Assembly (NCBI GenBank): GCA_015485355.1
Contig: WFTQ01000004.1
Coordinates: forward strand, 1-64,000
Length of the DNA: 64,000 nt
Origin: a bacterium
Lineage (GTDB): Bacteria; Calditrichota; Calditrichia; RBG-13-44-9; J042
Reading direction: 5' to 3'
Positions within the stretch are counted from its first letter, which is position 1, and each line of letters opens with the position of its first letter. Below are positions 8,844-49,365 of the stretch, one piece after another. Under the pieces are notes generated by a model. The model saw only the letters and a program-made list of their open reading frames with translations. It was not told the DNA's origin and made no database searches. Both the position numbers and the translations under genes were made by a program.

Positions 8844-9644
8844 CTAACGCCCATCCAGATATTTCAGGTAATTGAAAATTTTACGCACGTAGAGGCGCGT
8901 TTCCGAAAACGGGGGAATGCCTCCATATTTTTCCACAGCGGAGGGACCCGCATTATAGGCGGCCAGCGCCAGAGAGAGCTCTCCGCCGAAGCGGGCCAAA
9001 AGCTGGGCCAGATAAGCGCTGCCGGCCAGGACGTTCTCCTCGGGGTTGAACACATCGCGCACGCCCAACGCTTTTGCGGTGCCGTCCATCAACTGCATCA
9101 ACCCCTTGGCTCCCTTCGGCGATACCGCCTTCGGATCGCCTGAAGACTCCGCCAGAATGACGGAACGAATAAGATTGGCATTCAGTTTATGGATCCGCGC
9201 CGCCTTTTCGATGAAAGCTTCAAAGGGTTTCAGTCGGTGGACCGCCGGTTTTTCCAAAACATTCCCAGGCAGTCTACGGGGCGTTTGTTGCCAGGGATGC
9301 ACCGGATTGCTGGCATCTCCCTGAGGGGAAAGCGTTGGTTTCAGCTGTTGTTGGACCATCTCCGCAATACCCAGGCGGGCCGAACGCGCCACCTGCCGGG
9401 ACAGCTCCTGGTCAAACAAAGCTTGCAGAATATCGCCCTGAAGGCCGGTATCCAGGAGCCCCGATTTCATCACGGTTTTTCGCATACTCCTCAATAAAAA
9501 CTGCACGAAAAGCGCCTCAAACTCTTCACTGGCTCGGCGCAGCTCCCGGTCCGAGCCTTCGGACGGTTGCCGAACACGCTTCAACTGCTGTTCCATTAAC
9601 GACCGGGAAGTCAACAGCTTAAGTTTCCACTCCAGATCGCTCAT
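8844..9644 (-). CDS. flgJ: FlgJ-type rod-assembly protein fused to a lytic transglycosylase
   Basis: Last gene of the flagellar operon; 266 aa. Residues ~36-100 are the FlgJ rod-binding domain (FEALFVQFLLRSMRKT, DILQALFDQELSRQVA). Residues ~140-266 are an SLT lytic transglycosylase domain with catalytic Glu166 in AESSGDP, then GLMQL (181-185) and AYNAGP (229-234). It should cap or organise the rod while opening peptidoglycan for it. Gammaproteobacterial FlgJ carries a glucosaminidase in this position instead. There is no signal peptide, as expected for export through the flagellar type III system. Confidence 0.92.
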   Translation of the reverse strand: MSDLEWKLKLLTSRSLMEQQLKRVRQPSEGSDRELRRASEEFEALFVQFLLRSMRKTVMKSGLLDTGLQGDILQALFDQELSRQVARSARLGIAEMVQQQLKPTLSPQGDASNPVHPWQQTPRRLPGNVLEKPAVHRLKPFEAFIEKAARIHKLNANLIRSVILAESSGDPKAVSPKGAKGLMQLMDGTAKALGVRDVFNPEENVLAGSAYLAQLLARFGGELSLALAAYNAGPSAVEKYGGIPPFSETRLYVRKIFNYLKYLDGR

Positions 9645-9670
9645 TCAACGCTCCCGGTTTGGTGTATCCA

Positions 9671-9892
9671 TCAATGGGAATACAGCTCGTCCACTTGATT
9701 CTGTCCCCACCCATGGTACAGTCCCGAACGAGTATTGTACGACTGGGAATGTTCCTCCTGCCATTCCCCCCTCAGGAAACCGCCGGGTTCTCCCTTCATG
9801 GAAGAATAATTGATTTGCTGAGGATGCTGAATGGGATCGATAGGAGCCGAGCAGGCCAATCCGAGTAACAGTACGAACCAAAACCAACGCAT
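9671..9892 (-). CDS. small lipoprotein of unknown function, flagellar operon
   Basis: 73-aa product with a hydrophobic N-terminus and lipobox LGLAC (Cys at about residue 14), then a polar mature part of about 60 residues. The ribosome site AAGGGGG precedes the ATG, and the gene sits between flgI and flgJ (26 bases before flgJ), so it is probably a real operon member. No family is recognised. By position it may be an outer-membrane partner of the rings or of FlgJ. Confidence 0.65.
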   Translation of the reverse strand: MRWFWFVLLLGLACSAPIDPIQHPQQINYSSMKGEPGGFLRGEWQEEHSQSYNTRSGLYHGWGQNQVDELYSH

Positions 9893-39727: not shown

Positions 39728-41059
39728 CTAACTCCAGCTGCCCTGGTTGACAATATTGCCGTTTTCGTCGTAAACTTTCCAGCTGCCCGAATGATCGGCA
39801 TTCCAGGTCACTTCGAATTGAAGCAGGTTATTCTTATAAAACTTCAGGGAACCCGATCCATCGGCATTTTTCTGAACTTCAACCCGGTAACCATCGGAGG
39901 TATTTAAAACCGCGCTCACGCTGCCATCGGCATCCACAGTCCATTCATAGGTGTTCAATATATTGGTGCTGTTTTGTTCGTACAGAGTGAACACACCGCT
40001 TTTCCGGTCGGCACTGATCTGGCCTTCCATAGCTTTCCAGTTTTCGTATTGATTGCCGGCCGCATCGGTACCGTCTATATAAAGCGCCCATTGCGTAGTG
40101 CTATCGGGTTTCATCGTGACTTCCAGACGAATGCTCAGATTCCCTTGATTCATTTCCCAGGTCCAGAGGGAATCCTGATGCGTCATGCTTCCCTGGTGCA
40201 TCACAACTCTCATAAAACCATGAAGGCTTGTGAATAAGTTGTGAAAACTCACATAAGGAGCACCAAAAAATTGGACCTGGCTGGGCGTATTGCTGGGTAT
40301 TGTTACCACGGCATTGTCCAGGGAAGCGGAGATATCCGGTGGGACGGTTCCACCGGCCCCCCAGCTGCCACTGCCGGTTTGTTGTCCATTTTCATCATAG
40401 CTCGCCCAGCTGCCCGATCCGTCGGCATTCCAGCTGGCTTCCAACCGTTTTACCCCATCAATGTACACCACCAGCTCTCCGGAACCATCGGGATTATTGA
40501 CAATGTCCAACCGCTGATTCTCGCCGGTCGTCAACGTCGCCCGAATGGTACCATCCTGTTCCACCGTCCAGCTATAGGTAAAGCGAAGGGTCTGCGTAAC
40601 GGGATCAAATACTTTAAAAGTCCCCGCCTTTCCATCACGACTTAAAGAAGCTTCCAAAATTTTTACATTGTTGTAGGGAGTCTCTGTTTGAGGATCGACA
40701 CCATTGAAGTACAATTCCCATTTCTGGGTACCATCGTCTTCCACCCAGGCCACCAGGCGCACCGTAAAGGTGTTGTGAGTCTGTTCCCACACCCATTTGC
40801 CGTCTTCTCGTTTGACCTGGGTACTCTGAATCAGTGTTCGCCATCGCTGGTAAATTTCTGTAAAGGAGTTGCGAAAGCTCCCCAACATCTGCCCATAAGG
40901 TCTCACCTGATCGGGAGTATCGGCGGGCACTTCGGTGACATTGGCTTCCAGGTTCGGGGGGAGTTGGGGCGGTTCCTGCTCGGGCCCGGTGGTTTCCTTC
41001 GCACACCCCAACAACAGTACCATCCCAAGTGCCAGAACGGCAAATCCTATTTTCTTCAT
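39728..41059 (-). CDS. lipoprotein with a tandemly duplicated beta-rich domain
   Basis: 443 aa from ATG 41059, which has GGAGGAGATCGAG. Lipobox LLLGC (Cys at about 19), a Pro/Glu-rich linker, then two ~195-residue repeats. Paired landmarks: VPADTPDQVRPYG / IPSNTPSQVQFFG, WELYFNGVDPQTETPYNN / WALYIDGTDAAGNQYEN, FTYSWTVEQDGTIRATL / NTYEWTVDADGSVSAVL, and WNADGSGSWASYDENG / WNADHSGSWKVYDENG. The latter resemble MORN-like or carbohydrate-binding turns. No catalytic residues recognised. Probably an outer-membrane lipoprotein of unknown role. Confidence 0.75.
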   Translation of the reverse strand: MKKIGFAVLALGMVLLLGCAKETTGPEQEPPQLPPNLEANVTEVPADTPDQVRPYGQMLGSFRNSFTEIYQRWRTLIQSTQVKREDGKWVWEQTHNTFTVRLVAWVEDDGTQKWELYFNGVDPQTETPYNNVKILEASLSRDGKAGTFKVFDPVTQTLRFTYSWTVEQDGTIRATLTTGENQRLDIVNNPDGSGELVVYIDGVKRLEASWNADGSGSWASYDENGQQTGSGSWGAGGTVPPDISASLDNAVVTIPSNTPSQVQFFGAPYVSFHNLFTSLHGFMRVVMHQGSMTHQDSLWTWEMNQGNLSIRLEVTMKPDSTTQWALYIDGTDAAGNQYENWKAMEGQISADRKSGVFTLYEQNSTNILNTYEWTVDADGSVSAVLNTSDGYRVEVQKNADGSGSLKFYKNNLLQFEVTWNADHSGSWKVYDENGNIVNQGSWS

Positions 41060-41194
41060 CTCGATCTCCTCCAATTTCAATTTTCCACATCCAGAATGTT
41101 AATATTTATTGTCCTATCGGGATGTGGTTCCCATCAAGTTCATCTTTTTTTTCCGCTCATCTGTATTCCAAAACACATTTCTTTATCCGCTGTT

Positions 41195-43225
<2,031 letters not shown>

Positions 43226-43293: not shown

Positions 43294-43896
43294 ATGAGAA
43301 AAAAACTGCTTACATATTTGCTCATTTATTTTACTTTTCTTTTCTGGAAATGTACCAATCCCTTCAGCATTCGCACGGCCGAACCGCCCATTCTCACCGG
43401 AGAAAAGCAATTGTCCAAGAACCTCCAAAACCACCCCGATTCTTTGCTGGCGAAATTGCGCTATGCATTTTTACAAAAAAACAGCATCTATTATCAGGAA
43501 TGTTTAGCGGACTCCCAGGAGGTGGGCAAAAATTTTGTGTTTGTTCCCGAAAAAAACGAATCGTTCCGCTTTACGAACTGGTCCCGGCAGGATGAGATCA
43601 ACTATTTTTCGAACCTCATTAACCAGAACGATCTGGATCGCATTGAAATTGAATTTTACGATCATGCGGAATGGAACGCCGCACCCACCTCCACCGACAC
43701 CTTGTCTACTCAATTCGCCTATCGCATCAACCTGATCTTTCGGAAAAGGGTGGAGACCTATCAGGGACGAACGGTCATGAAAATCCTGCGGTCTACTTTG
43801 TCCCAATGGTATATCTACCACTGGGAAGATTTTCATCCCGGGCGAGAAGAACAAGCGACCTGGTCCACTCTAAAGGCCGATTATCGGTATAATTAA
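43294..43896 (+). CDS. lipoprotein, NTF2-like paralogue A
   Basis: 200 aa with lipobox LFWKC followed by TNPF (Cys at about 20). The mature part starts with a helix carrying LLAKLRYAFLQKNSIYYQEC. It ends with beta strands (YRINLIFRKRVETYQGRTVM, QWYIYHWEDFHPG), a pattern like NTF2-like/SnoaL folds. It is a paralogue of the next gene, which starts 2 bases after its stop. The ribosome site is weak (AAAG). Divergent promoters with ligA are expected in the 77-base gap. Function unknown. Confidence 0.72.
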   Translation: MRKKLLTYLLIYFTFLFWKCTNPFSIRTAEPPILTGEKQLSKNLQNHPDSLLAKLRYAFLQKNSIYYQECLADSQEVGKNFVFVPEKNESFRFTNWSRQDEINYFSNLINQNDLDRIEIEFYDHAEWNAAPTSTDTLSTQFAYRINLIFRKRVETYQGRTVMKILRSTLSQWYIYHWEDFHPGREEQATWSTLKADYRYN

Positions 43897-43898
43897 CC

Positions 43899-44426
43899 AT
43901 GCGCGGCGAATTCGGCAAACAGCTGTTTCTCCTGATCCTGGTCACCGGATATTTCATGCTGATCCACTGTGTAAACCCTTTTGCGCCAAAGGCCGTGGAT
44001 GAAGGGGTATCCTATTCCCGACTGCTCACCAATCAGGAAACCCCCGAAGCCGTGTTGACCAACTTCCGTTACGCATATACCTATAAAGACTCCCTGATAT
44101 ACAGTGAATTATTTGATAGCACTTTTATTTTCCGAAGCTGGGACTACAATGTGACCCCGCCCATTCCCATTGAATGGGGACGAGACATCGAACTGCGAAC
44201 AACGGCCCGCATGTTCCGGTTTTTCAATACGATCGATCTGATCTGGAACTCCACCATCTATTTGTATTACGACTCTACAAAAACAGAGGCGGAAATGAAA
44301 AAAACCTTCACCCTGACCTTCGACGGAGGGAAGAGCATTCCCACGCTCAATGGCGAAGTGATCTTTAAATTCATCAAACGAGGCAAGAGATGGTATATTA
44401 CCCTATGGGAAGATCTGCAAATTTAA
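43899..44426 (+). CDS. lipoprotein, NTF2-like paralogue B
   Basis: 175 aa with lipobox FMLIHC followed by VNPF. It parallels the gene before it: AVLTNFRYAYTYKDSLIYSE against LLAKLRYAFLQKNSIYYQEC, and RWYITLWEDLQI against QWYIYHWEDFHP at the end. Likely a tandem duplicate, anchored in the outer membrane. It sits 13 bases ahead of the PdxJ-like gene, so the three form an operon. Function unknown. Confidence 0.72.
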   Translation: MRGEFGKQLFLLILVTGYFMLIHCVNPFAPKAVDEGVSYSRLLTNQETPEAVLTNFRYAYTYKDSLIYSELFDSTFIFRSWDYNVTPPIPIEWGRDIELRTTARMFRFFNTIDLIWNSTIYLYYDSTKTEAEMKKTFTLTFDGGKSIPTLNGEVIFKFIKRGKRWYITLWEDLQI

Positions 44427-44439
44427 CCAAAGGAGAACT

Positions 44440-45168
44440 ATGGGGATGAAACGCTTGACAGTGGCTCTGGACGATATTGCTCGTATTCAAGAAATTTTTG
44501 GAAATGACGCTCTCGATCCCGTGCGTTACGGCATTTTGTGCGAAACGTACGGGGCCGATGGACTATCCGTAACCCTGACCCATTCGGCGCGAGGCATTCC
44601 GGAAAAAGACATCCGTTTGCTCAAAGACCTTCGTCGCTCCTATTTAAACCTGCATATTCCTTTCCATGCCGAGTTGTTTAAACTGGCACTCTCGATCGCC
44701 CCGGATATGGTGACCTTCGTGGAAACCCCACACAACCAACCGGATAAACTGCTTCCTCTCTCTCCATCCGTGTTGAACGAAACGCTGGGTGAAGTTTTAC
44801 CGAATTTTCAATCCAACAACATCTCCGTGGCGGTCTTGATTTCGCCGGACATTAATGTGTTAAAGTCCCTCAGCAAACTGGAAATCGATTATGTGGAACT
44901 GGATTGCACCGAATACACACATGCCACCAATACGAATGATGAGCTGGTGGCGTTAGACAATCTGAAAACCGCCGCCATGGGAGCGGCGAAATTGGGATTG
45001 GGAATCAACTGTTACGGCGGCATTGGTTATCAACATCTGGCGGACTTACGTCAGCTTCCCCATCTGGAAGACGTGACCATCGGTCAAAGCTTGATTCAGC
45101 GGGCTTTTTTAATGGGATTAGAAAAGGCGATTCAGGAGGCACGGCTGGCTCTGGGAGCCCGGGGTTAA
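44440..45168 (+). CDS. PdxJ-like protein with replaced catalytic residues
   Basis: 242 aa, colinear over its whole length with pyridoxine 5'-phosphate synthase PdxJ (GADGLSVTLTHSARGIPEKD, INCYGGIGYQHL, EDVTIGQSLIQRAFLMGLEK). Aligned to E. coli PdxJ as I recall it, key positions differ: His12 is Asp, His45 is Thr, Arg47 is Thr, Arg50 is Ala, His52 is Gly, Glu72 is His, and the His of the NAGHG motif is Gly. It probably does not make PNP by the known mechanism. The ribosome site AGGAG suits either ATG 44440 or ATG 44446. It is the third gene of an operon with two lipoproteins. Confidence 0.82.
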   Translation: MGMKRLTVALDDIARIQEIFGNDALDPVRYGILCETYGADGLSVTLTHSARGIPEKDIRLLKDLRRSYLNLHIPFHAELFKLALSIAPDMVTFVETPHNQPDKLLPLSPSVLNETLGEVLPNFQSNNISVAVLISPDINVLKSLSKLEIDYVELDCTEYTHATNTNDELVALDNLKTAAMGAAKLGLGINCYGGIGYQHLADLRQLPHLEDVTIGQSLIQRAFLMGLEKAIQEARLALGARG

Positions 45169-46400: not shown

Positions 46401-47906
46401 TTAATCCTCAAACACCCGATCCACGGGAATGATTTCTACATGCTCCGGCTTAACCCGTAAAGGATAGGCGGCAATCTCTTGGTCCTCTTCCAGGATTTCG
46501 GCTGGTTTGGGGGTGGGATACTGGATCGGGCTGGGCGTATTGTTTACCAGGGCCTGCTTTAAGGCCTGCCCGTCGGCGGTGACAAACACGGCTTTGATGT
46601 TTCGATACTGGAAATATGTCTTAATGGCCTGGTTCACCTCCTGGAGGGTCAATTCATCCATCATCTTTCGAAAGATTTCCAGGTGATGGCCTTTGATGCC
46701 GTAGAAGACATCGTCCATGGCATAGCCCAATTTCATCATGGTGGTCGGGGCAAAATGCAGGATGTAGTTTTTCAGGAATTTGCGGGTGAGTTCAAATTCT
46801 TCCCGGCTCATCCCGTTGTCCACCAGTTTCTGGAGTTCTCTCAAGGCCGCCCGGAAGGCAAACAATCGCGCTTCATTGGGTACCGGACGAATCCAGATCT
46901 GGAATATTTGCTGACGGCGGGCGATATTGGTGGGGGGAAACTGTCGGCGTCCCCCGTTGGGAAAATGTTCGATGTAGGCATAATCGCCGTAATTCAAGCC
47001 CCTCTTTTCCCGGATCACCTGATACAAGTGGGAGCTGGAGTTTCGATGTTCTCCCAACCAAGAGGTGGCCAGCGCCAGAGCATAAAACTCCCGGCTGCCT
47101 CGGGTGACCCCAATAGGATAACCAAAACTGATGGCCGTGGCGCGGGCCGCTTTCTCCACGATGCGTACGTGCAATCCCTCGAATGGACGAGGCTGGGGCG
47201 GTGGAACAGCCGGGGGATTCCCCGCCGGTAAAACCGCAAAATCGGCTTTCATTCGTTCAGGAAAAGAGGCCTCAAAACCGCCACCCAGCCCGATCAATAC
47301 ATTCTCCCGGGTATAGTATGTCCGGTAAAAATTCTTGACCTCCTCGAGCGTAATGGACTGTAAGCTTTTTACATGCCCTTCTTCCAGATGTTGGTAAGGA
47401 GTACCCTGAAAAATAAACTCATACAACACTTCCTTTCCCAGTTCTTCATCGTCCGCATAACGCAATGTGCGCTGAACATAGTTTAAAAAATTGCTTTTCA
47501 CCCGCTGAAAGTCTTTCTCATCAAATGCGGGTTCAAAAAGCACTTCTTTCAGCAACGCATAATAGTCGTCCAGATTGTCCCGATGCACCCGGCCATAAAT
47601 CACGGTCATCTCCTTGTCCACCTGACTATTGATATAGGCCGCCATGGGATACAGCAAATCCAGAATGGCTTCGTAAGAGCGTGTTTTAGTGGCTCCATTG
47701 GTGATCATGGCTGCGGTCAGAGCCGCCAACCCTTCTTTGCCCCGGGGATCGTTCTGGGAACCCACTTTAAACAGAATGCGGAAAGAGATGGTGGGATCGT
47801 CCGCAACGGGTAACAGCACCATATTCTCCTCACCTTTTTGCAACGAACAGCCCCAAAACAGCGATAGAATTACGAAAATGGGTAGGGTAATGGTTTGTTT
47901 CATCAT
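46401..47906 (-). CDS. M16-family peptidase homologue without the zinc motif, lipoprotein
   Basis: 501 aa. Lipobox FWGC (Cys at about 20), then two M16 domains. The HxxEH zinc motif is missing: the equivalent helix reads KEGLAALTAAMITNGATK. It should be the non-catalytic subunit of a heterodimer with the product of the upstream gene, as in mitochondrial processing-type pairs. The ATG overlaps the upstream gene's stop (ATGA), supporting 1:1 expression. Confidence 0.9.
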   Translation of the reverse strand: MMKQTITLPIFVILSLFWGCSLQKGEENMVLLPVADDPTISFRILFKVGSQNDPRGKEGLAALTAAMITNGATKTRSYEAILDLLYPMAAYINSQVDKEMTVIYGRVHRDNLDDYYALLKEVLFEPAFDEKDFQRVKSNFLNYVQRTLRYADDEELGKEVLYEFIFQGTPYQHLEEGHVKSLQSITLEEVKNFYRTYYTRENVLIGLGGGFEASFPERMKADFAVLPAGNPPAVPPPQPRPFEGLHVRIVEKAARATAISFGYPIGVTRGSREFYALALATSWLGEHRNSSSHLYQVIREKRGLNYGDYAYIEHFPNGGRRQFPPTNIARRQQIFQIWIRPVPNEARLFAFRAALRELQKLVDNGMSREEFELTRKFLKNYILHFAPTTMMKLGYAMDDVFYGIKGHHLEIFRKMMDELTLQEVNQAIKTYFQYRNIKAVFVTADGQALKQALVNNTPSPIQYPTPKPAEILEEDQEIAAYPLRVKPEHVEIIPVDRVFED

Positions 47907-49237
47907 TGTTCTCCCTTCAGTATGATCACCGTCCGTTGGGCTTTCACGAAATAGCGTTGTGCGGCGGCTCGAATATCTTCGGGTGTCAATTGAGCCATAT
48001 TTGCATGAAGTTGATCAACGGCCCGGAGGTCGGCAGTCAGAGCAATCCATCGAGCCAAACGCGAGGCTACATGATCGGGCGTGTCCAGACCCATCAAGAA
48101 AGAATACCGGGTGTGTTTTTTCTCCCGTTCCAATTGCTCCGCCTCCACCAGCTGGTTTCGAAAACGCCTCACCGTTCGATCAATTTCCTGACGGACATAC
48201 GGTATATCTTCCTCCTTTTTCACCATAGAAAAAATGGTCAACAGTTTGGGATCGCGATGAAAACCAAAATCGCTCTGAATAAACTGTACCTTTTGTTCCC
48301 GAATCACCAGCTTCTTGTAAATCTCACTGGTTTGCCCGAAGGCCAGGTTGCCCAGAAGATAGGCTGCCGCAATCATTTTATTCGTGGGATCAAAAGCATC
48401 CCCTTTATAGGCCACGGCGACAATCGGCAAAGTTTTTCCCGGATAGGTAACCTCTTTAAAGCGTTCCTTTTTCTGTCCCGGCTCGGGGGGAATGTCGGGA
48501 GGCACATATCCTTTCTCCCATTGACCATAATAACGATCGATCAATTTCTTGGTGGCCTCTACATCAATGTCGCCAACAATCAGCAACACCACATTATCGG
48601 GCCGGTAAAACCGTTTAAAAAAACGCCGGCTATACTGATAACCGGTGGGCATCTTCTGAATATCTTCCTCAAACCCAATCGTGGTATGCTTGTAGGTGTG
48701 CCGATCAAAGGCGGTATTCAGCAGGGCCTCGTACAAGACCGCCCACGGATTGACTCGACTTTTCCGATATTCGCCGTACACCGCTCCGGCCTCGGTTTTA
48801 AAGGAAAGCTCATCGTACGCGAGGTTCTGAAAGCGATCGCTTTCCAGATCCATGACCCTTTCCAGATTCTCCCGAGAAACCACCAGATAATAGCAAGTGT
48901 AGTCATCCGTGGTATAGGCGTTGGCGTCGGCACCCATTTCGGTGACCAACCGATCGTACACCTCTGCGGGGTAACGCTTGGTACCCCGGAACATCATGTG
49001 CTCAAAAAAGTGGGCAAATCCTGTTCGGCCGGGCTCTACTTCGTCCCGACTTCCCGTCCGCACGATGGAATAATAGGCCACCAGACCGCTGCCCGACATG
49101 GGGATCAGGATGGCTCGCAACCCATTGGGTAAATCGTAGGTTTCGTATTGATACGGAAAAAAGGCGGAATCCCCACGATCGGCCATAATGCCTCCAGCAA
49201 TCCCCAACCATAGTAAACATCCTATCCAATATCTCAT
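47903..49237 (-). CDS. M16-family zinc peptidase, catalytic subunit
   Basis: 444 aa from ATG 49237, which has AGAGGG; the frame is open to 49279. Signal peptide (to about GGIMA), zinc motif HFFEHMMF and the distal Glu within AGAVYGEYRKSR. The second domain starts near FKEVTYPGKT. A periplasmic or surface zinc peptidase acting on short peptides or unfolded segments, paired with the next gene. Confidence 0.93.
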   Translation of the reverse strand: MRYWIGCLLWLGIAGGIMADRGDSAFFPYQYETYDLPNGLRAILIPMSGSGLVAYYSIVRTGSRDEVEPGRTGFAHFFEHMMFRGTKRYPAEVYDRLVTEMGADANAYTTDDYTCYYLVVSRENLERVMDLESDRFQNLAYDELSFKTEAGAVYGEYRKSRVNPWAVLYEALLNTAFDRHTYKHTTIGFEEDIQKMPTGYQYSRRFFKRFYRPDNVVLLIVGDIDVEATKKLIDRYYGQWEKGYVPPDIPPEPGQKKERFKEVTYPGKTLPIVAVAYKGDAFDPTNKMIAAAYLLGNLAFGQTSEIYKKLVIREQKVQFIQSDFGFHRDPKLLTIFSMVKKEEDIPYVRQEIDRTVRRFRNQLVEAEQLEREKKHTRYSFLMGLDTPDHVASRLARWIALTADLRAVDQLHANMAQLTPEDIRAAAQRYFVKAQRTVIILKGEQ

Positions 49238-49365
49238 AACAGCCCTCTTCAATAATGATCCCTTGGCGTTCGGTTTCACTCAAACCCGACTTTGACAAAA
49301 ATTAAAGCTTACCAATTTAGCATTTTATCAACAGGGGGACAACCCGTGGGAGAAAAAAGCGCGTT

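Follow-up and report, generated by a model that had tools for sequence, protein, structure and literature searches.

The locus at positions 43294-45168 of the DNA analysed here (the window, 64,000 nucleotides of contig WFTQ01000004.1, from a bacterium of the phylum Calditrichota) raises the question of whether a protein built like the PNP synthase PdxJ, and encoded behind two lipoprotein genes, still serves vitamin B6 synthesis and, if it does not, what it has become. The unit consists of three codirectional genes separated by intergenic gaps of 2 and 13 bases (Table 1), and a second start of the PdxJ-like gene, at 44446, coincides with the start in most relatives. The ligA-like gene is the divergent upstream neighbour of the unit in most Calditrichota. 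Scans for promoters and terminators gave a yield no higher than that obtained with shuffled sequence. Elsewhere in the window, positions 39728-41080 encode a lipoprotein with two similar halves, which is found nearby elsewhere only in the nearest relative (L033), and positions 46401-49279 hold two adjoining M16-peptidase-like genes; a similar pair directly follows pdxJ in locus L121.

Table 1. Features of the locus in the window.
Feature	Coordinates	Strand	Remarks
Lipoprotein A (lipoA), 200 aa	43294..43896	+	Lipobox Cys followed by TNPF; Calditrichota-wide
Lipoprotein B (lipoB), 175 aa	43899..44426	+	C-VNPFAP; predicted NTF2-like fold; paralogue of lipoprotein A
PdxJ-like (beta/alpha)8 barrel, 242 aa	44440..45168	+	PNP-synthase catalytic residues replaced
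ligA-like gene (NAD-dependent DNA ligase, named from sequence)	41195..43216	-	Outside the unit
AAAGGAG, ribosome-binding-site-like, 5' of the PdxJ-like start	44429..44435	+	Sequence read directly

The family of the protein is clear. It matches PF03740 over residues 5-235 of 242 with an E-value of 2.5e-42 and 145 bits (cut-off 24.5), and the nearest solved sequences are PdxJs (E 5e-23); it falls below every cut-off of the NCBIfam PdxJ equivalogs, the best score being 122 vs. the 190 bits required. The AlphaFold2 model, built from a 21-sequence alignment, is a barrel (pLDDT 90, pTM 0.89) for which Foldseek ranks solved PdxJs first (TM 0.81-0.92). An earlier note, made from the sequence, had described the protein as colinear with PdxJ and as keeping its length and barrel, and both the end-to-end PF03740 match and the TM of about 0.9 bear this out. 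With PdxJ (PF03740; PDB 1M5W, 1HO1 and 6RG0) the protein thus has in common end-to-end homology, length, barrel and a place in the ancestral gene order described below; unlike PdxJ, it has its acid/base histidines, Glu72, the arginine set and the lid loop all replaced, in a genome that carries PdxS-PdxT and in which PdxA was not found.

The replacements were followed in an alignment of 34 Calditrichota proteins, 34 canonical PdxJs (21 from other phyla, 12 lipoprotein-linked and that of E. coli) and 11 divergent PdxJs. Compared with E. coli PdxJ, the window protein carries N9A, H12D, H45T, R47T, R50A, H52G, E72H and H193G, and none of N9, H12, R20, H45, R47, R50, H52, E72 and H193 is kept. With the exception of R47, these residues are kept in 0 of the 34 Calditrichota proteins and are invariant or nearly so in the 34 canonical PdxJs, strictly invariant in the case of H12, H45, H52, E72 and H193. 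The earlier list of replaced residues (His12, His45, Arg47, Arg50, His52, Glu72 and His193) is therefore correct for the window protein, but does not hold phylum-wide for Arg47, which is kept in 18 of the 21 Calditrichota outside the window's taxonomic order. The active-site lid loop of PdxJ comprises residues 95-105 (PMC10471632), and in this region P95, E96, E100, T102, T103, E104 and G106 are lost in all or nearly all Calditrichota. Asp11 and Glu153 are kept in the window protein and in 97 and 91% of Calditrichota, respectively, G193 and I195 are kept in all of them and N190 and G215 in most; of the positions with at least 94% invariance among the canonical PdxJs, those of a structural kind (A14, P27, G38, D57, N70, V94, G226 and A230) are mostly kept as well.

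Comparison with the nearest relative gave a dN/dS of 0.037 for the PdxJ-like gene and 0.053 for ligA, with saturated dS. The gene is under purifying selection (dN/dS about 0.04) and the protein, therefore, does something. Since the losses are common to all 34 aligned relatives and selection is purifying, chance or decay is excluded, and the preference expressed in the earlier note for a new activity or a pseudoenzyme over random decay is still the best reading. That the gene is a decaying, functionless relic is hardly credible: one relative (G027, locus L050, about 9004-9711) does have an in-frame TAA that splits the gene into parts of 145 and 87 aa, a pseudogene or a sequencing error, but across the class the gene is single-copy and full length, with the low dN/dS just given.

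The window genome, 98.7% complete, has a single PF03740 match, no PdxA in a search with PF04166, and PdxS with an adjoining PdxT-like gene, so that neither a second, canonical pdxJ nor the accompanying pdxA, whose presence the earlier note had thought worth checking, was found. PdxS occurs in 36 of 39 relatives and PdxA in 14 of 39 (families f4 and f5), none of them in the window's order, in which the PF04166 search found PdxA in 0 of 15 other genomes. Because the catalytic residues are gone, there is no other PdxJ and no PdxA, and PdxS-PdxT is present, it is very unlikely that the window protein is a B6 enzyme; as 14 Calditrichota do have PdxA, a B6 link is still conceivable for those. It is barely plausible that the protein continues to act as a PNP synthase by means of other residues, as the retention of D11 and E153, the intact fold and the PdxA of these 14 genomes might suggest, given that Glu72 and every essential histidine are missing, that no substitute in register is shared across the phylum, that the lid loop is lost, and that the window's order has PdxS and lacks PdxA. 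A 2023 survey of 21,105 genomes, which takes pdxJ to mark the DXP-dependent pathway, names Caldithrix abyssi as one of ten bacteria that appear to have both B6 routes and suspects that the DXP-dependent one is incomplete (PMC9997740). The altered PdxJ of Calditrichota probably explains this two-pathway entry.

Alteration of PdxJ is not confined to this phylum. Among 385 genomes, 11 outside Calditrichota have a full-length divergent PdxJ, and in most of these proteins the greater part of the catalytic residues is missing, in a pattern that differs from one protein to the next. G150 carries a further copy of more canonical type, and G227 keeps several of the residues. Of these 11 genomes, 8 carry PdxS, vs. 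3 of the remaining PdxJ-bearing genomes, which number about 218 once two fragment-only genomes are set aside (Fisher p 1.6e-10, calculated on related genomes that are not independent). At least one of these three, G094, itself has an altered PdxJ, canonical by score (260 bits) and yet with H12Y, H45R, R47M, R50K, H52Y and H193R; it keeps E72 and E153, in a genome with PdxS and without PdxA, and possibly represents an early stage of active-site loss. The other two, G127 and G267, combine PdxS with a strong PdxJ score and no PdxA. Of the 11 divergent genomes, 9 either lack PdxA or show a weak fragment of it; 32 of the 33 canonical genomes tested alongside have it, the exception being G368, whose completeness is 79%.

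In trees built with the catalytic columns left out, the Calditrichota PdxJ-like proteins form one clade (support 87/90 and 99/89 in two trees, both of which are troubled by long branches), so that the substitutions do define a clade, as the earlier note had wondered, and a lipoprotein gene accompanies the PdxJ-like gene in every locus of this clade for which upstream sequence is present. The other altered PdxJs scatter, but a single altered clade was not rejected in AU tests (p 0.47 and 0.48); a grouping of Calditrichota with G094 obtained p 0.34. The genomic contexts are two, with altered pdxJ following glmM in L113 and L118 and not the lipoproteins, and they favour at least two losses; adjacency of glmM and pdxJ is common for canonical pdxJ. 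Among the recovered loci that bear a name, nearly all are from Calditrichota. L082, filed as Caldisericaceae, and L090, filed as Deltaproteobacteria, have PdxJ-like genes of the Calditrichota type and are probably mislabelled assemblies.

The lipoproteins themselves are a pair of related proteins. Nearly all members of both groups have C-x-N-P-F after a hydrophobic N-terminal leader, by which lipoA and lipoB are predicted bacterial lipoproteins, and the two are homologous to each other (E 1e-8). The NTF2-like pattern attributed to them earlier finds agreement in lipoB, which models as an NTF2-like fold (pLDDT 77.5; the best PDB matches have NTF2-like or cystatin-like folds, with a query TM of at most about 0.67); the likeness to NTF2-like proteins lies in this predicted fold, whereas the lipoproteins match no Pfam family. 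Searches of Pfam and NCBIfam gave no real family for them, only a weak Thg1 match (E 0.06) under its cut-off, and no description of a C-x-N-P-F lipoprotein pair was found.

At least one lipoprotein gene adjoins the PdxJ-like gene in 34 of 36 Calditrichota loci, the other two of which begin at a contig edge. The profile of lipoprotein A has matches in 82 of the 385 genomes. In other phyla, about a dozen genomes have lipoA and/or lipoB directly upstream of a canonical pdxJ (L122-L129, L131-L133 and probably L149), in most cases separated from it by the gene for a divergent polysaccharide deacetylase (PF04748). The lipoA-lipoB-(deacetylase)-pdxJ order is also found with an altered PdxJ in L110 and L116, and the deacetylase is absent from the Calditrichota locus. 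As other phyla have a canonical pdxJ within this very order, the altered gene derives from a canonical pdxJ that occupied the same position; the lipoproteins are not, as the earlier note had supposed, odd company specific to the altered protein, and their linkage, being ancestral, is by itself no pointer to a new function. A chance association of pdxJ with the lipoproteins was rejected, as the order holds across phyla. A long ORF in L149 that might have been a fusion of deacetylase and PdxJ was judged an artefact, the two genes lying in different frames. Downstream, a gene for a beta-eliminating lyase (PF01212, tryptophanase-like, PLP-dependent) follows canonical and altered pdxJ in L110 (8696-10075), L112, L125 and L129. 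Outside the window's order, in L060 (3620-9664) and about 20 Calditrichota loci, the gene that comes next after the PdxJ-like one encodes a protein of 820-860 aa with membrane helices and weakly matching glycosyl hydrolase 2 domains, and an SMC-like gene stands behind it.

This shared gene order allows a different account, in which canonical PdxJ would already have performed a second task, accessory or without catalysis (structural, regulatory or protein-binding), in connection with the ancestral lipoprotein-deacetylase locus, and this task alone was kept after PdxS-PdxT took over. The linkage with lipoproteins and deacetylase spans canonical and altered pdxJ, and many PdxS-bearing lineages retain pdxJ rather than delete it. 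Furthermore, the most divergent PdxJ-like proteins, those of L119 and L120 (genomes G367 and G093; 61-69 bits), which come from genomes with PdxS, still have a PF04748 deacetylase and an asparaginase-like gene as neighbours. However, lipoproteins are also present in genomes without PdxJ, and therefore do not need it, the Calditrichota locus has lost the deacetylase, the lipoproteins are exported and PdxJ is without a signal peptide, some altered genes lie elsewhere (L113 and L118, after glmM), and gene order may persist without function. On balance, we consider such a second role somewhat unlikely.

Our preferred explanation, to which we give as a whole a probability of about 0.45, is that a former pdxJ was altered in place and that its product now binds a phosphorylated ligand in a role outside B6 metabolism. 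The in-place change from a PNP synthase to a protein that is not one is, taken separately, highly probable, and the phosphate-ligand role is tentative. The pdxJ of the lineage would have been altered while lying in its ancestral gene order; PdxS-PdxT would have taken over PLP synthesis and thereby freed the active site of PdxJ, probably in this sequence of events. The acid/base histidines, Glu72, the arginine residues and lid loop 95-105 are replaced, and the barrel, Asp11, Glu153 and a phosphate-binding pattern (N190-x-x-G193-x-I with G215), which we take to resemble the general phosphate site of TIM barrels, are retained, presumably with phosphate binding itself. The product would most likely bind a phosphorylated small molecule as an enzyme other than PNP synthase or as a sensor, unrelated to B6. 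Sugar-phosphate barrels come next after the PdxJs in Foldseek, and phosphate-binding TIM barrels such as ribulose-phosphate 3-epimerase, 3-keto-L-gulonate 6-phosphate decarboxylase and HisA/TrpF are alike in fold (TM about 0.65-0.7) and presumably also in a Gly-rich loop 7/loop 8 pattern; they differ in having only 11-16% identity in structural alignments.

Conservation at the former catalytic columns bears on whether the pocket was re-specialised. In Calditrichota outside the window's order, D9, Y45, R72, S192 and G193 are newly fixed at these columns, beside D11 and E153, and conservation there is 0.84 vs. an average of 0.68 (p 0.012), as might be expected of a new Calditrichota enzyme with a re-specialised active site and a substrate of its own. 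In the window's own order, the same columns stand at 0.61 vs. an average of 0.61, so that the case for a re-specialised pocket does not extend to this order; this order lacks such a shared set (T45, H or R72, D12, P74), and other phyla differ again, so we regard a new enzyme of this kind as unlikely. The relaxed pocket columns of the window's order, with other positions conserved, would also suit the second, accessory role considered above, and the data from this order fit a scaffold or sensor role about as well as they fit a phosphorylated ligand.

PDX1.2, a plant pseudoenzyme of the PdxS family, offers a parallel, in that it too is related to a barrel of PLP synthesis, is altered in its catalytic residues and is maintained by selection. 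PDX1.2 belongs to the other B6 enzyme family and is a paralogue beside an active PDX1, whereas in the present case the only PdxJ copy is the altered one and PLP would come from a different system. PDX1.2 is cited in PMC6385983. Among open-access papers, no report was found of a PdxJ pseudoenzyme, of moonlighting by PdxJ or of PdxJ with a divergent polysaccharide deacetylase.

The presence of altered PdxJ across a phylum and in scattered bacteria that have B6 by another route means that PdxJ-shaped genes are no proof of the pathway. Pathway calls made from pdxJ alone are unsafe in PdxS-bearing genomes, for which the set of lost residues offers a simple filter. It may even be, although we hold it to be unlikely, that PdxJ has a second conserved job besides B6, tied in many phyla to an envelope-related cluster of the lipoprotein pair and the divergent polysaccharide deacetylase, and that PdxS-PdxT lineages dropped the enzyme activity several times independently and kept that job. 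The same locus, carrying canonical PdxJ in some phyla and stripped PdxJ in others, is a natural experiment that makes a second function of PdxJ directly testable.
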